Source: Roseimaritima multifibrata
GTDB lineage: Bacteria > Planctomycetota > Planctomycetia > Pirellulales > Pirellulaceae
Direction: 5' to 3'
DNA length: 64,000 nucleotides
Assembly (NCBI RefSeq): GCF_007741495.1
Contig: NZ_CP036262.1
Span: 5,084,001 to 5,148,000, forward strand
Part shown: in pieces, positions 7,141 to 43,075 of the stretch
How the letters are laid out: each line of letters opens with the position of its first letter
Position numbering within the stretch: position 1 is the stretch's first letter
The notes under the pieces: model-generated
Database searches by the model: none
Seen by the model: only the letters and a program-made list of their open reading frames with translations
Told to the model about the DNA's origin: nothing
Position numbers and translations under genes: made by a program

Positions 7141-9276
7141 ATGCCCCGCACCGGTCTCCGCTTGAAAATAGTGCTATTCATCGGCATCACTGGCTGCTTT
7201 GGATATGTCCACGCGCAAGACGCAGGGGCTCAACTCCCAAACGCTCCCATCGCCAATGCCGACGATGCCTCCGCGGAGACCGTTCAAGAAGCAGTGAACG
7301 GGGACGCCGATCCGGAAACGTTCGACACGTTGCCAATGGCCCCGGAAACCACGGTGACTCCGCCTCAAAATCGCTCCAGCAACACCGGCTCTGGATCTCC
7401 GCTGGCCAATCCCGGAAGTGCTCCCGTTGCCGTGCCGGCTCAAGTGAGTTCAAACGATACCGGGAATTCGACTTCGGCCAACGGAACCTCAAACGTTCCC
7501 TCGAACTCGGTCGTCACCGATTCACGGTCGCTCCGCCCCGGCAACCAAGTCGGCAGTTCGATGACGGTGATCAGTCGTGAAGCGATCCGCAACACTGGTC
7601 AGGCAAGCGTTGCGGCGGTCCTCCGCAGTGTGCCTGGACTGGATGTGGTTTCGCAGGGAGGCCCAGGCCAACAGACTTCAGTCTTTATGCGTGGAGCGAA
7701 TAGCAACCAAACCAAAGTGATGCTTGACGGGATGCCGATGAACGATCCAGGCAGCCCAGGTCGCGGCTTTGATTTTTCGACCCTCACCGTGGATGAAGTC
7801 GAACGGATTGAAGTTCTTCGGGGCCCCCAAAGCACGCTTTACGGCAGCGATGCCATCGGCGGTGTGATCAATATCATTACTCGCAAAGGTGGTGAACCGA
7901 TCACCGTCGTCAGCAGCGAAGGCGGATCGTTTTCAAGCTCAAGAACAACCGCCCGCACGGCGGGCGGAAATGACCGTCTCTACTATGCGCTGGGAGGCAG
8001 CTACAACGACACAAACGGCTTTTCCGCCGCAGCCTTGCCCCCCGGGAATACGGAAGCCGACTTCTATCGAAACGGGACCATTTCCGGGCGACTTGGATGG
8101 CAGGCAACCGAACAGCTTGCAGTCGATATCGTTGCTCGGCACACCGATTCCGATACAGGAACCGATGGTTTTCCACCGCCAACCTTCACGCTCCAAGACG
8201 ACCTTTCGTCCCTGGAACAGGTTTCCACGGTGATGCGTGCACAGGCGACCTGGACGACGGCCGATGGGATCTGGAGTCATCGGCTGGGTAGCGGGTATTC
8301 CGAATTTGAACGAACTTTCTTCTCCGATTTCGGAGGCACTTTCTACGGACGAACCGGGCGACTGGATTGGCAGAACGACCTCCTCCTGGTCGACCAAGAG
8401 GACGTTCGCTGGCAACTCACCAGCGGGATCGATTTCCTGGAAGAAGTCGCTCGGAACGATACGGTTCCCCAGGCAAGGCAGGGGAACTTAGCTGGATACT
8501 TCCAAACCAATATCGATTTAAATGATCGCTTGTTCCTCGGTGCCGGTGCCCGCTGGGACGATTACAGTCGAGCTGGTTCTGCGTTCACGTACCGGATTAC
8601 CGGCCGGTACAATGCAACCGAAGCAACCGCATTGCACGGAGCAATCGGGACCGGATTCCGAGCTCCAGCACTCGATGAACTGCTCGGTTTAGTTGGCAAC
8701 CCGCTGCTCAATCCGGAACAGAGCAAAGGCTGGGAAGCGGGGGTTCAGCAGCGCCTTCTTGATCAGCAAATCACTTTGGACGCGACTTACTTTCGCAACG
8801 ACTTTAACGATCTGATCCAGTTCGAATTTGATCCACTGGCCCCCGGGCCGTTCGGCGGGACCCTGCAAAACGTCAAACAAGCACTCGCCTCCGGAGTCGA
8901 ATTAACCAGTTTGTGGGCCCTGACCGATGAAACGACCCTGTTCGCCAACTACACCTTCACCGACACTCGAGACCGCTCCACAGGCGATCCGCTGTTGCGT
9001 CGCCCCAAGAATAAGTGGGCGTTTGGATTCAGCCGATACTATCCCAACAACCGAGCCAACGTCACCTTGCAGGCACTGTATGTAGGCGACCGAACGGATG
9101 TTGGCACGGTCCTGGATGACTACTGGTTCGTCAACCTTGCAGCCTGGTACCGGTTCAATGAATCATGGCGAACCTTTGGACGCATCGACAACCTCCTAGC
9201 CCAAGACTACCAACCGGTCGCCGGCTACCAAGGGACACCGTTTTCAGCCTACGCCGGACTGGAACTGAGGTTCTAG
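7141..9276 (+). CDS. TonB-dependent outer-membrane receptor, BtuB-like
   Basis: Protein of 711 residues. A signal peptide (about 1-25, ending VHAQ) is followed by some 110 residues of Pro/Ser/Asn-rich linker. The plug domain (about 135-250) has the SVFMRGANSNQTKVMLDGMP stretch and the VERIEVLRGPQSTLYGSDAI motif. A 22-strand-type beta-barrel ends in Phe, as outer-membrane barrels do. The family imports scarce ligands such as corrinoids or chelated iron with energy from TonB. The closest pattern I recognise is the BtuB/vitamin B12 group, but the ligand is inferred. ATG at 7141 follows a weak GAGAAG. I see no cobalamin riboswitch in the 290 bases upstream; that region holds only part of a dispersed repeat. 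Confidence 0.88.
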   Translation: MPRTGLRLKIVLFIGITGCFGYVHAQDAGAQLPNAPIANADDASAETVQEAVNGDADPETFDTLPMAPETTVTPPQNRSSNTGSGSPLANPGSAPVAVPAQVSSNDTGNSTSANGTSNVPSNSVVTDSRSLRPGNQVGSSMTVISREAIRNTGQASVAAVLRSVPGLDVVSQGGPGQQTSVFMRGANSNQTKVMLDGMPMNDPGSPGRGFDFSTLTVDEVERIEVLRGPQSTLYGSDAIGGVINIITRKGGEPITVVSSEGGSFSSSRTTARTAGGNDRLYYALGGSYNDTNGFSAAALPPGNTEADFYRNGTISGRLGWQATEQLAVDIVARHTDSDTGTDGFPPPTFTLQDDLSSLEQVSTVMRAQATWTTADGIWSHRLGSGYSEFERTFFSDFGGTFYGRTGRLDWQNDLLLVDQEDVRWQLTSGIDFLEEVARNDTVPQARQGNLAGYFQTNIDLNDRLFLGAGARWDDYSRAGSAFTYRITGRYNATEATALHGAIGTGFRAPALDELLGLVGNPLLNPEQSKGWEAGVQQRLLDQQITLDATYFRNDFNDLIQFEFDPLAPGPFGGTLQNVKQALASGVELTSLWALTDETTLFANYTFTDTRDRSTGDPLLRRPKNKWAFGFSRYYPNNRANVTLQALYVGDRTDVGTVLDDYWFVNLAAWYRFNESWRTFGRIDNLLAQDYQPVAGYQGTPFSAYAGLELRF

Positions 9277-13564: not shown

Positions 13565-13753
13565 TTTTGACACCTATGGTAAATGGGTCCTCCAATTATC
13601 AATGAAAAGAGTTCCAAGCCCAGCCCACATCAGAAGTGCATCTGAATTCGAGCCAAACATTCGCTTCCTCGGCGTTTTAAGCAGGGCGAAGGAGGCGATG
13701 TTTATAGGTGACGGTTTTTGAAGCCTTTCGCGGAGGGCGTGAAAAGAATAAAT

Positions 13754-14110
13754 GAAGAAAGTCTGGCTCCCCTCGCCCTCAAAACAAGCTCGCCTAAAAC
13801 AGGTTTGATACAAGACCAACGGTTCGCCAGCTAATGCAATTAAGGTCGATTCAAAGGCTTATTTTGGGGGAGAGGGGCTGGGGGAGAGGGGCCGACAGCG
13901 TTGGGCAAGGCCTGGCATAATCGCTTCAAATCCGAGGCGTTCACCACGTCTTCGCTGCAAAATCGCCGCCTGGAAATCTCCCCCTCTCCCCCAGCCCCCA
14001 AGCAAGCTCCACTAAATCAAACAAAGAGGCAGAGATCACGCAATGAGCTAGCAGAGATTTCTTCCGCAACAAAGAGCTCGCTTAGGGGCGAGGGGAGCCA
14101 GACTTTCTTC
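13754..14110. mobile_element. MITE-like element ME-1, copy A
   Basis: A 357-bp element with 25-bp terminal inverted repeats beginning GAAGAAAGTCTGGCTCCCCT (13754-13778 and, reversed, 14086-14110). It has no coding capacity. The interior includes GGGGGAGAGGGGCTGGGGGA-type purine-rich tracts and their complements, so the whole can fold on itself. It is flanked on both sides by the short dispersed repeat with GGGACGT and ATAAAT. Copy B lies at 16544-16879 in opposite orientation, and relatives follow both 5S genes. The gap 13565-14241 holds nothing else I can support. Confidence 0.8.
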
Positions 14111-14241
14111 ATCTATAAATCGCACGTCCCGAGCGAAAGGCGACAATCACATTGCTATGCTCGCCAGTGCGCGGACTGACCGGCAATCGATTGCAGGTCC
14201 CAGCGTTGAATCAATATCTGAACGAGGTTGTCCCGCGACTT

Positions 14242-16311: not shown

Positions 16312-16543
16312 TTCGACAGCTGAACGGTCCCTGTCTGCTTCCGCCGGGCTAGTCCCGGTCCGGGGCAAGCCCGGAAACGGAACTCTCGATATTTGGAGCT
16401 AAAAAGGTGACGATTTCACGCCAGCCCATCCGAGTCTGAGTGCCGTGCTTTTAGCCCAGCGGGCGGCAGATACTTGCCGTTGGCGCAACGGCTTGCTGAA
16501 TTAGTGATTGTTGCCTTTCGCTCGGGACGTGCGATTTATAAAT

Positions 16544-16879
16544 GAAGAAAGTCTGGCTCCCCTCGCCCCTAAGTGAGCTCTTTGTTGCAGAAGAAATCTC
16601 TGCTAGCTCATTGCGTGATCTCTGCCTCTTTGTTTGATTTAGTGGAGCTCACTTGGGGGAGAGGGGGAGATTTCCAGGCGGCGATTTTGTAGCGAAGACG
16701 CCGTGAAAGCCTCGGATTTCAAGCGATTATGCCACGCCTTGCCCAACGCTGTCGGCCCCTCTCCCCAAAAACAAGCCTTTGAATCGACCTTAATTGCATT
16801 CGCTGGCGAACCGTTGGTCCAGTATCAAACCTGTTTTAAGCGAGCTTGTTTTAAGGGCGAGGGGAGCCGGACTTTCTTC
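16544..16879. mobile_element. MITE-like element ME-1, copy B
   Basis: A 336-bp copy of ME-1 in the orientation opposite to copy A. Its left end is identical over GAAGAAAGTCTGGCTCCCCT; its right end has one change in the 25-bp terminal repeat (GCCGGAC for GCCAGAC). Internally it lacks some of the purine-rich tract of copy A. It lies between the DUF1598 gene and the cobalamin riboswitch, about 130 bases before the latter. Confidence 0.8.
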
Positions 16880-17005
16880 ATTTATAAAACGCACCTCCCC
16901 CGCGAAAGTAACTTCAAGGGACCGTTCTTTCGCCTACACGCGTTACCTAGACAGGAACGCCAACAGGGGGACGTTGACTCGTGCCAATCGCTTGCCTAGG
17001 CTATT

Positions 17006-17222
17006 TGTTGTTCGTGGTGACCTGAGGGTTCGTTAAACCTTCAGGTAAACAGGGAATACCGGTGAAATTCCGGGACGGTCCGGCCGCTGTGTGTCACTGG
17101 CAATTCTCACAGGAGAATTGCTCCCGTTGCTCCTTCTTTGGAAGTGCCATTGCTCGCGTTGCGAGTGAGAAGGCAGTGAGCGATTGGAAAGGTGGCGAGT
17201 CAGAAGACCTACCACGACAAAA
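17006..17222 (+). promoter_or_regulatory. Cobalamin riboswitch (aptamer)
   Basis: The sequence shows the conserved blocks of the B12 aptamer in order: ACAGGGAATACCGGTG near 17049, then ATTCCGGGACGGTCCGGCCG with CTGTG, a variable hairpin region, GAAGGCAGTGAGCGA near 17168 and GGCGAGTCAGAAGACCTACC (the B12 box) near 17193. A closing stem forms between TTGTTCGTGGT (17008-17018) and ACCACGACAA (17211-17220) with one bulge. In known cases, binding of a cobalamin represses the downstream genes. The gap to the next start (17223-17470) includes a TGATCC/GGATCA hairpin near 17290-17312 that could belong to the expression platform; I see no clear terminator there. Confidence 0.93.
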
Positions 17223-17470
17223 CGATTAAGTGCCCTCTCGGATTGGGGCGGTCGTTGCAGTGAGTTTATGTGTCTTCGTACTTGATTCCATAAGCCCACT
17301 GATCCCCGTTTCCACGGATCACCCCCCGGGACTTTCGTTTTCAACAGCTTTGTTCACCCCGCTTTCATTGTTACGTTTTTAAACAAAGACGCTAACAACC
17401 GGCTGAAGGTACGCGCGAACAGAAAGTCTGTTGATCGAAAACGGCTGTCCCGGTTTCCCGGACACCGACA

Positions 17471-18502
17471 ATGCCAGATTTTTCGTTACCCGGACCTCAA
17501 GCCTTTCGGCCTGTGCCGTCCCCGTGCATCAAAATTTGCAAGCTGAACCAAGATCAAATCTGCACCGGCTGCGGAAGGTCTCGAGCCGAAATCGGAAACT
17601 GGTCGAATTGGTCCAATCCAGCGCGTCGGGCATGCCTCCAACGCGCCGAGGATCGACTGAATGCTGCCGACTGGCTGACCGATACCCAACCGGAATCCGA
17701 CGCCCAAACCGACAGCAAACCACCTCGATCCGGCTTCACACTTGTCGAACTGTTGGTGGTGATAGCGATCATTGGAATTTTGGTCGGGCTGCTTCTTCCC
17801 GCGGTGCAAGCGGTCCGCGAAGCGGCAAGGAAAACACAGTGCAAAAACAATCTCCATCAGCTGGGGATCGCTTTGCACATGTACCACGACGTTCATAAAA
17901 GCCTCCCCATGGGCTGCTTGGAATGGCGCAGTTTTTCCTCCCCTCCAACGCACCGGCAGATGGCTTGGTCGGCGATGCTGTTGCCCTTTTTGGAACAGCA
18001 AAACGTTCACGACCAAATCGATTTTGGGCTCGCCTTTGATGCCCCCGAAAACGCTGCCGCAGCCGCTCAACGAATCTCCGCATACGAATGCCCAACGGCC
18101 CCTGAAAAAATCCAAACTCGCGGCCGAACCGACTATGGCGGGCTGTATGGCGAACGGATCAATGACTCGATCCCCGAAGACGGGCTGTTTCTTTATGAGA
18201 CCGCGATTTCTTTCCGCGGCATTCGCGATGGATTGACTCAAACGCTGGCCGTTGCCGAGGACGTTGGCGGCCCGGACAGCGAATGGATCAACGGTCGAAA
18301 CGTGTTCGTCCAAGCCTACGGAATCAACGATCCGGAAGCCTGGGTCGGAGACAACGAAATCCGCTCATTGCACCCCAGCGGAGCGATCGTGTTATTCGCC
18401 GATGGACGAACTCAGTTCATGGCCGAAACCATCGACAAAACGATCCTCGGCAAATTGATCACTCGATCGGGCGGAGAAACCGTGTCGGCATCCGACTTTT
18501 AG
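17471..18502 (+). CDS. DUF1289 Fe-S-like domain fused to a DUF1559 pseudopilin
   Basis: Protein of 343 residues. Residues 17-63 are a DUF1289 domain with Cys 19, 23, 31 and 34 ([10 protein letters not shown], then [16 protein letters not shown]); the family is thought to bind an Fe-S cluster or zinc. A linker leads to a prepilin signal, [18 protein letters not shown], with cleavage expected after Gly 88 and Glu at mature position 5. The rest is DUF1559 with [15 protein letters not shown] and the HX9DG motif (His 301). DUF1559 proteins are abundant planctomycete pseudopilins of unknown role, and usual leaders are short; an 87-residue leader carrying a cysteine domain is unusual. The frame is continuous. 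The gene lies 249 bases after the riboswitch and 77 before the DUF4465 gene. Confidence 0.88.
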
Positions 18503-18579
18503 TCGCCAACGTTTTCAAGCGTCCACTGAACAACCATTTTTCAAACTTTCTTCATTATTCCTCCAGAGAAACCACCACG

Positions 18580-19398
18580 ATGAACGCTTCACGATTCCTT
18601 TTGATTGCCTTGGCGACCACCGTTTTGCCACTGTCAGCTTCCGCAGCAACGATGATCAGCTTTGACGAATTATCGCTCAGCCCCAACAGCTATTTCGATG
18701 GCCATGGCGCCGGTGCGAGCTCTGGAACCTGGACATCGCAGGGAGCCACCTTTAACACAGGGACTTACGGCCCTGGCTGGAGCTATTCCAACGTCTCCGA
18801 CAACACCACCGCCGGCCACACCAACCAGTGGTCTGCCGTCCCGGGGACCGACGCAAGCGGTAGCGGGAACTACGTTATCGGCACCACGTTCAGTCCCAAC
18901 GGCGCCTATTTTAATCTTCCCGGCAGTGAAAAGATCTCTTCGATCGCGGTCACGAACGCCACCTACGCCTACCTCTCCATGCTTAATGGTGACGCGTTCG
19001 CAAAAGAGTTTGGGGGGACGACCGGCGACGACGAAGACTTTTTCCAAGTCACCTTCACAGGATTTGACAGTTCAAACGCTGGAGGTTCGTCTCTTGGTTC
19101 GGTCGACTTCTTTTTGGCCGATTACCGTTTCGCGGACAATGCAGACGACTACATCATCGATAGTTGGCAGACCGTTGACCTATCCTCGCTGGGGAACGCT
19201 CGCTCGATCGGCATCTCATTGGCCAGCAGTGATGTAGGGATGTTTGGGATGAACACACCCGCCTACGTTGCCATCGATAACATTGCATTCCAAGCGGCCG
19301 CCGTCCCTGAACCAACCAGTCTGTTGTGCATAGGAGCGTTGGTATTAGCCACTAGCGCTCGCCGAATCCGCAATCGATTCGCGTCGCTCGCCAGCTGA
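18580..19398 (+). CDS. DUF4465 protein with PEP-CTERM sorting signal
   Basis: Protein of 272 residues from ATG at 18580. It has a signal peptide (to about residue 22, SASA), then a beta-rich DUF4465 domain with FDELSLSPNSYFDG, SNVSDNTTAGHTNQW, NATYAYLSMLNGDAF, DFFLADYRF and GMNTPAYVAIDNI. The end is a PEP-CTERM anchor: VPEP at 242-245, a hydrophobic stretch, then an Arg-rich tail. PEP-CTERM proteins are processed by exosortase and reach the cell surface. DUF4465 genes are, as far as I recall, often near corrinoid-uptake genes in Bacteroidetes; this was not checked. It shares the riboswitch transcript with the fusion gene, so a surface role in corrinoid capture is a reasonable guess. Confidence 0.87.
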   Translation: MNASRFLLIALATTVLPLSASAATMISFDELSLSPNSYFDGHGAGASSGTWTSQGATFNTGTYGPGWSYSNVSDNTTAGHTNQWSAVPGTDASGSGNYVIGTTFSPNGAYFNLPGSEKISSIAVTNATYAYLSMLNGDAFAKEFGGTTGDDEDFFQVTFTGFDSSNAGGSSLGSVDFFLADYRFADNADDYIIDSWQTVDLSSLGNARSIGISLASSDVGMFGMNTPAYVAIDNIAFQAAAVPEPTSLLCIGALVLATSARRIRNRFASLAS

Positions 19399-30649: not shown

Positions 30650-33562
<2,913 letters not shown>

Positions 33563-33675
33563 ATCGATATCTTGCACTCGCATAGAACATCAATGATCTT
33601 CTGAGAATCTTTAGATAAAACCTACTACCAAACAACTGGCTACCGGCAAGGTGAAATATTCCTTCCGGTAGTCTT

Positions 33676-33783
33676 TCCGGCGACCATATCAGAAAGGTCA
33701 CACCTGTTCCCATCTCGAACACAGTAGTTAAGCTTTCTGAGCCGATGATAGTGCATACCAGCGTGAAAGTAGGTATTGCCGGA
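33676..33783 (+). rRNA. 5S ribosomal RNA, copy 1
   Basis: 108 bases, with TCCGGC at the 5' end pairing with GCCGGA at the 3' end, and internal CCCATCTCGAACACAG and GAAAGTAGG segments typical of 5S. It lies 113 bases after the 23S gene in the same transcript and is followed by a strong terminator. Identical to copy 2. Confidence 0.95.
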
Positions 33784-33790
33784 TTTTTAA

Positions 33791-39314: not shown

Positions 39315-42227
<2,913 letters not shown>

Positions 42228-42340
42228 ATCGATATCTTGCACTCGCATAGAACATCAATGATCTTCTGAGAATCTTTAGATAAAACCTACTACCAAACAA
42301 CTGGCTACCGGCAAGGTGAAATATTCCTTCCGGTAGTCTT

Positions 42341-42448
42341 TCCGGCGACCATATCAGAAAGGTCACACCTGTTCCCATCTCGAACACAGTAGTTAAGCTT
42401 TCTGAGCCGATGATAGTGCATACCAGCGTGAAAGTAGGTATTGCCGGA
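42341..42448 (+). rRNA. 5S ribosomal RNA, copy 2
   Basis: Identical to copy 1 across its 108 bases, from TCCGGCGACC at 42341 to GCCGGA at 42448, and 113 bases after the 23S gene. Confidence 0.95.
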
Positions 42449-42455
42449 TTTTTAA

Positions 42456-42574: not shown

Positions 42575-43075
42575 ACGACAAAAGCCTCGCTCCCCTCGCC
42601 CCTAAGCGAGCTCGTTGTTGCGAAAGAAACACTAGCGAGATCATTGCGTCATCTCTCGCTTCTTGTCTGATTTTGCGGAGCTTGCTTGGGGGAGAGGGGC
42701 TGGGGGTGAGGGGGAATTTCCAGGCGGCGATTTTGCAGCGAAGACGCGGTGAAAGCCTCGGGTTTCAAGCGGTTATGCCACGTCTTGCCCAACGCTGTCA
42801 GCCCCTCTCCCCCAGCCCCTCTCCCCAAAAACAAGCCTTTGAATCGCACTTAATGGAATTAGCTGGCGAACCGTTGGTCCAGTATCAAACCTGTCTTAGG
42901 CGAGCTTGTTTTGAGGGCGCGGGGAGCCAGACTTTCTTCACTTATTCTCGCTCAAGGCGTGACCAATATCCGTCACCTATAAATCGCACGTCCTTCGGGC
43001 TTATTTCGGGGGAGCCCAAAGGCTCCATTCTTTCCAGGCCCGAAGGGTCGACACAACAAAACTGCTACGACAATC
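42575..43075. mobile_element. ME-1 copy D with attached module
   Basis: A full-length ME-1 relative (about 42575-42939). Its right terminal repeat is intact (GGGGAGCCAGACTTTCTTC), while the left end has diverged to AAAAGCCTCGCTCCCCTCGC. A single copy of the roughly 140-bp module seen twice in the unit 1 region follows (42940-43075). Compared with unit 1, it lacks the CTCTGCCGGGGGTGAAGCCC segment. The gap 42491-43420 holds this, the GCGTGAAAG/CGTCC short repeat near 43115-43165, and no gene I can support. Confidence 0.7.

Follow-up and report, generated by a model that had tools for sequence, protein, structure and literature searches.

The window analysed here is a stretch of 64,000 nucleotides from the genome of Roseimaritima multifibrata (contig NZ_CP036262.1, positions 5,084,001 to 5,148,000, forward strand). 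It holds a cobalamin (vitamin B12) riboswitch followed on the same strand by two genes, the first coding for a pseudopilin in which a DUF1289 domain is fused to a DUF1559 domain, the second for a protein of the DUF4465 (BtuJ) family. An initial annotation had proposed that both products capture corrinoids at the cell surface. The features of this unit, all on the + strand, are the following (aa, amino acids; papers are cited throughout from the excerpts available).

16998..17230, +, cobalamin (B12) riboswitch aptamer (Rfam RF00174, full length)
17231..17470, +, leader of 240 bases from aptamer to gene 1, folding strongly
17471..18502, +, gene 1, DUF1289::prepilin::DUF1559 fusion, 343 aa (Pfam; fusion also seen in other units)
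17519..17656, +, DUF1289 four-cysteine domain, aa 17-62 (PF06945, 60 bits)
17726..17797, +, prepilin cleavage/methylation motif GFTLVE, aa 86-109 (PF07963, N_methyl, 34.5 bits)
17807..18295, +, DUF1559/SBP_bac_10 domain, aa 113-275 (PF07596, 165.8 bits)
18131..18157, +, signature DYGGLYGER of the B12-unit clade, aa 221-229 (alignment of clade against others)
18299..18313, +, second clade signature N-x-F-x-Q, aa 277-281 (same alignment)
18580..19398, +, gene 2, DUF4465 (BtuJ family) protein, 272 aa (PF14717, 170.2 bits, cut-off 25)
18964..18966, +, Tyr129, equivalent of the B12-contacting Tyr146 of BtuJ1 (alignments; role from PMC12751083)
19252..19266, +, NTPAY, aa 225-229, corresponding to the family's B12-binding HI loop (alignments; role from PMC13398666)
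19303..19395, +, C-terminal VPEP, hydrophobic stretch and basic tail, PEP-CTERM-like (read from the sequence)

The riboswitch

The aptamer scores 74.4 bits, well above the gathering threshold of 31.5, with an E-value of 1.8e-16 when the whole window is searched, and spans positions 1-189 of the 189 in the RF00174 model, without truncation. The aptamer first annotated at 17006-17222 is thus real and slightly longer than described, and the covariance-model search proposed at that time gives a clear full-length match. A chance riboswitch is ruled out by this score and by the recurrence detailed below. It is the only cobalamin aptamer found by Rfam in the window, and one of two in the 7.2-Mb genome (one contig), the other lying at 4279642-4279894. 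The folding z-score is -3.0 for 17200-17500, a segment that covers the leader. The usual switching direction of cobalamin riboswitches is OFF, and ligand-dependent control of 17471-19398 is putatively assigned to this element.

Gene 2, a protein of a B12-binding family

The listed open reading frame of gene 2 begins at 18283, within gene 1, and an ATG at 18580 precedes a signal-peptide-like stretch; the spacing of 77 bases between the two same-strand genes (18502 to 18580) is as first annotated. A search of solved structures matched the product to PDB entries 9hmu (7.5e-22) and 9fct (1e-15), with 9i2l also found among the relatives. These entries correspond to D5EK51, BtuJ1 and BtuJ2, respectively (PMC13398666, PMC12751083). 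BtuJ1 and BtuJ2 of Bacteroides thetaiotaomicron have been described together with their B12-contact residues (PMC12751083), and B12 binding has been measured for eight diverse DUF4465 members, including one from the planctomycete Mucisphaera calidilacus (PMC13398666). The BtuJ1 contacts Tyr146, Asn241, Thr242 and Tyr245 are kept in the window protein as Tyr129, Asn225, Thr226 and Tyr229; across 20 aligned sequences both tyrosines are invariant, and the asparagine and threonine are present in at least 90%. The statement that neither gene belongs to a known corrinoid family is therefore outdated for DUF4465. B12 binding by this family was reported in 2025-26, and the capture role of gene 2 is largely in print already. 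The fold characteristic of the family is an augmented beta-jellyroll.

The mode of surface attachment looks different from that of the Bacteroides proteins. More than 70% of the DUF4465 family are predicted lipoproteins (PMC13398666), and the B. thetaiotaomicron members are lipoproteins, whereas the planctomycete proteins are PEP-CTERM-like or dockerin-bearing. The signal-peptide region of the gene 2 product has no cysteine, and the protein thus lacks the lipobox expected of a BtuJ of the B. thetaiotaomicron type. As for its annotation as a DUF4465 PEP-CTERM protein, the family assignment stands, but the tail is PEP-CTERM-like by eye only: the Pfam PEP-CTERM model gave no match and the NCBIfam model a weak one, below cut-off.

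Gene 1, a pseudopilin with an unusual leader

The annotated DUF1289::DUF1559 fusion is confirmed by Pfam, with a prepilin motif between the two domains. All three profiles lie above their cut-offs (23.3 for PF07596), and a second profile for the prepilin motif, TIGR02532, scores 28.6 bits against a cut-off of 16.3. Prepilin motif, DUF1559 domain and an H-X9-DG motif, the latter read from the sequence, are common to this protein and to the DUF1559/SBP_bac_10 family of planctomycetes, to which no function is assigned; the clade of the window protein differs by its riboswitch control and its own signature residues. In type IV pilin-like proteins, a short leader precedes the cleavage site. The window protein shares their prepilin motif and hydrophobic helix, but its leader is about 88 residues long and carries DUF1289, which sits N-terminal of the predicted cleavage site. 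Pseudopilin processing and assembly into a fibre are predicted from these features.

Recurrence of the unit in planctomycetes

A DUF4465 search was positive for 7 of 294 genomes of the phylum (even sample) and for 95 of 199 genomes of the window's family, and a DUF1289 search for 22 of 248 genomes of the class. Riboswitches were located in 71 genomes positive for DUF4465 or DUF1289, and the resulting rates are not representative of all planctomycetes. This yielded 145 riboswitches (84 + 61), of which 140 units were read, five in giant-gene loci being left out; loci outside the window are cited by their L numbers. Gene calls were longest-frame picks, which missed DUF4465 in four units including the window. 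First-gene counts rest on these picks, while co-occurrence within 6 kb was counted without gene picking.

The proposed survey of DUF4465 genes for riboswitches found a clear recurrence. The first 80 loci and the window together contain 67 DUF4465 frames, and for 66 of these a riboswitch lies on the same strand within 4 kb upstream, at a median of 986 bases; the sole exception is a second gene, 4,058 bases downstream of its riboswitch. Added to the published function of the family and to the kept contact residues, this recurrence strongly supports the predicted capture of corrinoids at the surface by the window DUF4465 protein.

The pseudopilin recurs as well. The first same-strand gene of the 140 units codes for DUF1559 in 52 and for a DUF1289::DUF1559 fusion in 8, making 60 units led by DUF1559. 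In other units the first gene codes for DUF4465 (30), DUF1289 (9), NrdA-cluster genes (9), MetE (1), and FAV (20), a secreted family named for its motif FAVFENGF, in which Pfam gave only the PEP-CTERM motif; all 20 first genes of class c0 are FAV by profile. Within 6 kb, 80 of the 140 units hold DUF4465, 54 of these with DUF1559 as well, and 73 of the 140 hold DUF1559. Units with DUF1559 within 2.6 kb of the riboswitch occur in each of the 7 family groups surveyed, and in the window's own group this is the case for 46 of 58 genomes. In six units the order is riboswitch, DUF1559, cobQ (cobyric acid synthase cluster; L179 checked by profile). One of these rows, in L188, continues with cobO (corrinoid adenosyltransferase), cobU, a BtuF-cluster gene (by cluster) and a BtuC-like gene.

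DUF1289 is often but not always tied to B12 units. Of its 24 matches in the class, 18 lie in 16 riboswitch-searched genomes, and a comparison of positions by hand places 15 of these at most about 1.6 kb from a riboswitch. The other three (L076, L079 and L081) have no riboswitch near, and DUF1289 is thus not supported as a general B12 marker. Directly under the riboswitch, DUF1289 is also found fused to DUF6925 in L069, L072, L068 and L071 (L072 scanned, the rest by cluster); in L069, this fusion is followed by an ABC-ATPase-cluster gene (by eye) and a BtuF-like gene. The literature searches found nothing joining cobalamin riboswitches with planctomycetes, and no B12 link, by title, for DUF1289.

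Two further kinds of genes were observed in these units. NrdA/NrdB-cluster genes follow DUF4465 in the same direction in L098, L119 and L093 (identity from L205). A TolC-like outer membrane efflux protein lies downstream of DUF1559 or DUF4465 in a riboswitch unit (L161:3925-5748), and the same cluster occurs in L149, L152, L168, L169, L172 and L173, all of one family group, L161 being the one scanned.

Distinct clades of pseudopilins

Trees were built from 71 DUF1559 proteins of riboswitch units and 50 others, 47 of which came from 50 loci of the window's genome (30 of these loci being its best scorers), the remaining 3 being far frames. With FastTree, 57 of the 71 unit proteins fall into one clade that includes none of the 50 others (support 0.987), and 8 and 6 into two more. 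The maximum-likelihood tree splits the unit proteins into groups of 56, 8, 6 and 1, the large clade having a Shimodaira-Hasegawa-like approximate likelihood ratio test (SH-aLRT) value of 95. On this tree, the riboswitch-unit label needs 3 changes, versus 31-44 in 100 shuffles, and the DUF1289 fusion needs at least 6, which indicates that the fusion was gained or lost several times. Residues D221, G223, E228 and R229 (window numbering) are conserved in the 57-member clade and rare in the 50 other DUF1559 proteins; N277 is found in 100% of the clade and 2% of the others, Q281 in 95% and 2%.

Taken together, the recurrence, the phylogeny and the cobQ units show the pseudopilin to be a conserved component of the B12 regulon. 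Its presence in a B12 operon is the new part of the finding. In the excerpts available, the literature joining DUF1559 with pilins revealed no B12 link. The proposed surface capture of corrinoids is strongly supported for the DUF4465 protein; for the fusion protein, recurrence establishes membership of the regulon only.

Pseudopilin or BtuB-like receptor beside DUF4465

A scan of named genomes with a DUF4465 alignment was used for comparison across phyla. Of 408 confirmed stretches, the 80 most similar to the window protein were kept; they make up 79 loci, which were profiled for pseudopilin, DUF1289, FAV and BtuB-like receptor within flanks of at most 6 kb; phylum labels were assigned by us, and the receptor profile was built from three proteins. 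The Planctomycetota loci (35) gave 30 pseudopilins and no receptor, whereas those of Proteobacteria, including the delta groups (20), gave no pseudopilin and 19 receptors. No pseudopilin was found in Bacteroidota (10 loci, 6 with receptor) or Myxococcota (3 loci, 1 with receptor). Verrucomicrobiota (6 loci) have three of each, never together, and the 5 loci of other phyla have one pseudopilin and no receptor. Rfam, run on 25 of the 79 loci, found the riboswitch in 12 of 12 from a mixed set and in 12 of 13 from planctomycetes, the exception being L284.

Five planctomycete loci are without pseudopilin. L284 starts near a contig end, and in L258, L266, L298 and L313 DUF4465 directly follows the riboswitch. 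Among six frames scanned with Pfam, five (L265, L272, L319, L326, L334) have the prepilin motif only, and DUF1559 is below cut-off in L279; since the counts are profile-based, 'pseudopilin' is a safer term here than DUF1559. In the proteobacterial locus L330, a prepilin frame recognised by its motif alone lies 4.7 kb from DUF4465; it is outside the pseudopilin count.

Among the 140 planctomycete units, neither the 73 that hold DUF1559 nor the 80 that hold DUF4465 have a match to the receptor profile within 6 kb. The profile matches three units (L157, L198, L201), each without DUF1559 or DUF4465. In these units, the search for btu neighbours suggested at the outset finds no btuB beside DUF4465; btuF- and btuC-like genes occur in the DUF1559-cobQ unit L188, and a BtuF-like gene in L069. 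That receptor and pseudopilin nearly exclude each other next to DUF4465 favours a shared place in the pathway. Against such a reading, a BtuB-like receptor is encoded elsewhere in the genome of the window, and BtuB-like genes have their own riboswitch in the three units just named.

The cobamide-uptake loci of B. thetaiotaomicron (btuJ, btuH, btuG, btuB) also have a riboswitch-controlled surface DUF4465 protein and, as in many relatives of the window unit, a second secreted domain family beside it. However, they include a TonB gene, which planctomycete DUF4465 units do not, and the available excerpts describe no pseudopilin or DUF1289, both present in the window unit. In betaproteobacterial operons (Aquabacterium L263, L269; Methyloversatilis L271, L277), FAV-type and DUF4465 genes are co-directional as in planctomycetes, with a riboswitch found in L263, L271 and L277; unlike in the window, a TonB receptor follows DUF4465 and no pseudopilin is seen by profile. 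The M. calidilacus protein 'Pan' is a planctomycete DUF4465 protein shown to bind B12; the excerpts of PMC13398666 mention no pseudopilin partner for it, whereas the window protein has one.

The FAV family

The second riboswitch of the genome precedes a PEP-CTERM protein of the FAV family (L003:8490-9383). In the 79-locus set, FAV adjoins DUF4465 proteins or forms part of them in 25 of 35 planctomycete and 19 of 20 proteobacterial loci. It was seen beside DUF4465, sometimes fused, in loci of Planctomycetota, Proteobacteria, Verrucomicrobiota and Bacteroidota (for example L066, L098, L125, L141), and in two pieces in L093. A profile of 37 FAV sequences retrieved one sensible solved structure, BtuG1 of B. 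thetaiotaomicron (8blw, E 6.8e-4, partial match), and the matched domain is BtuH-like (PMC10404256). The likeness to this BtuH domain is weak and partial, a single FAV sequence matched no solved structure, and a seven-sequence profile (A4; Bacteroidota, Verrucomicrobiota, Spirochaete) retrieved only matches of the C-terminal sorting-domain type and no BtuH. For these reasons, a kinship of FAV and BtuH is a lead only.

In giant surface proteins (L131:5856-11945, L145, L126, L127, L133), whose length ranges from about 1,000 to 2,600 aa, FAV is joined to two to five DUF4465 domains; one of the two scanned ends in a dockerin. Such chains are predicted to offer several B12 sites each.

The rest of the B12 path

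The genome codes for MetH and the B12-dependent reductase NrdJ, and the presence of both makes B12 use by this organism likely. A possible outer-membrane partner of the operon lies about 8 kb upstream of it.

7141..9276, +, TonB-dependent receptor, closest to BtuB (TIGR01779; E. coli BtuB)

This receptor had been annotated as BtuB-like. It is real and best matched by BtuB (6.6e-47 against the E. coli protein), with TIGR01779 as best model, but its 270.3 bits are below the NCBIfam equivalog cut-off of 599.7, and the Rfam scan of the window shows no cobalamin riboswitch there. That the DUF4465 protein feeds this receptor is plausible.

For passage through the inner membrane, the best FecCD (BtuC-type) match in the genome is partial (positions 101-292 of 311) and, at 27.1 bits, 0.6 bit over the cut-off of 26.5; it was not accepted as BtuC. 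One DUF6580 membrane protein is encoded (C1:5753849-5754346), a family suggestive only as a candidate inner-membrane B12 importer. DUF6580-cluster membrane proteins were seen under a riboswitch or after DUF1289 in L077, L130, L131, L135, L184, L189 and L191 (L077 and L130 scanned). A solved-structure search with the L077 protein gave no match, and a literature search found nothing on DUF6580.

Interpretation and alternatives

The unit is probably a B12-starvation operon for surface cobalamin capture with a dedicated pseudopilin, whose exact task we infer; a role of the operon in B12 capture is very likely. At low coenzyme B12, the riboswitch would be unoccupied and both genes made, as expected from the riboswitch class. 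The signal peptide of the DUF4465 protein would direct its export and the PEP-CTERM-like tail would keep it at the surface; by homology to proven binders, it would bind B12 through its tyrosine and NTPAY loops. The pseudopilin would be cut before Phe89, which would free the N-terminal DUF1289 domain in the cytoplasm, and would join a type II/IV-pilus-like envelope machine exporting, presenting or handing on the capture protein. B12 would then pass through the BtuB-like receptor to the periplasm and onward to MetH and NrdJ. The mechanical task of the pseudopilin may be to export the capture protein or to take part in uptake.

Several observations weigh against this interpretation. No expression platform was found by leader folding and terminator scan, the search of 17231-17470 revealing no terminator-like site between aptamer and gene 1. 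DUF1559 is missing within 6 kb from 26 of the 80 DUF4465 units, so that the pseudopilin is either not always needed or encoded elsewhere. Moreover, the genome holds 81 DUF1559 matches, and some pairings could therefore reflect a general export role rather than B12.

This last point leads to the strongest alternative, in which the pseudopilin is a generic export partner: each DUF1559 protein would secrete or anchor one neighbour, the cargo would here happen to bind B12, and the pseudopilin would have no B12 role of its own. Pairing with a secreted partner looks indeed habitual, since a small same-strand frame with a lipobox-like motif comes next after 20 of 48 ordinary DUF1559 frames examined in this genome. 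However, DUF1559 leads the six riboswitch units in which cobQ is the next gene, DUF4465 is missing within 6 kb from 19 of the 73 units with DUF1559, and proteobacterial DUF4465 proteins have no neighbouring pseudopilin of this profile. We give this explanation somewhat less than an even chance.

A bolder proposal is that a pilus-like machine replaces the TonB receptor, its fibre moving the B12-loaded capture protein, or B12 itself, across the outer membrane. The near-complementary counts of pseudopilin and receptor (30/0 of 35 in Planctomycetota, 0/19 of 20 in Proteobacteria, 3/3 of 6 in Verrucomicrobiota) and the lack of receptor matches within 6 kb of the planctomycete DUF1559 and DUF4465 units point in this direction, as do the dextran-binding pili-like fibres of planctomycetes (PMC5394234). 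Yet this genome has its BtuB-like receptor 8 kb upstream, riboswitch-controlled BtuB-like genes occur in 3 of 140 units, the exclusion itself relies on a three-protein profile and a short flank, and L330 has its prepilin frame near DUF4465. Replacement of the receptor is therefore unlikely.

The alternative of the initial annotation was a replacement pathway independent of B12, here taken to be turned on in its absence; riboswitches do lead class I NrdA-cluster genes (9 units) and MetE (one unit) at other loci (L205, L164 scanned), but neither window gene is enzyme-like by Pfam and DUF4465 is a B12-binding family, so that this very improbable explanation is rejected for these two genes.

Significance

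DUF1559 is the largest paralogue group of Planctopirus limnophila, with 68 proteins of unknown function (PMC10632474), and 74 such proteins were counted in Rhodopirellula baltica (PMC2754498). A DUF1559 clade linked to a single small ligand, for which the sensor is known, offers a first way into the function of this family, and a practical one, as B12 can be added or withdrawn while the protein is followed. The finding also bears on planctomycete uptake, given that pili-like fibres on crateriform structures were seen binding dextran (PMC5394234). In its widest form, the proposal would be that Planctomycetes and some Verrucomicrobiota import or gather B12 by a dedicated, starvation-made pseudopilin machine that carries BtuJ-type proteins and does the work of the TonB receptor. 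This is doubtful at present; if true, the phylum's largest orphan family, DUF1559, would consist of pseudopilins each specific to a cargo. The almost complete mutual exclusion of pseudopilin and BtuB-like receptor next to one and the same capture gene was unexpected, and gene removal offers a test of it.

Other features of the window

Two large-subunit (LSU)-5S rRNA units, at 30652-33784 and 39317-42449, have equal scores and are offset by 8,665 bases; the Rfam scan of the window gave no small-subunit (SSU) rRNA match alongside them. An interspersed repeat, about 400 bases long and bounded by 58-base terminal inverted repeats, lies just upstream of the riboswitch (16515-16908). Further copies are found in the window at 13725-14150 and 42581-42945 and at loci L211, L214 and L224, and the genome holds several copies.

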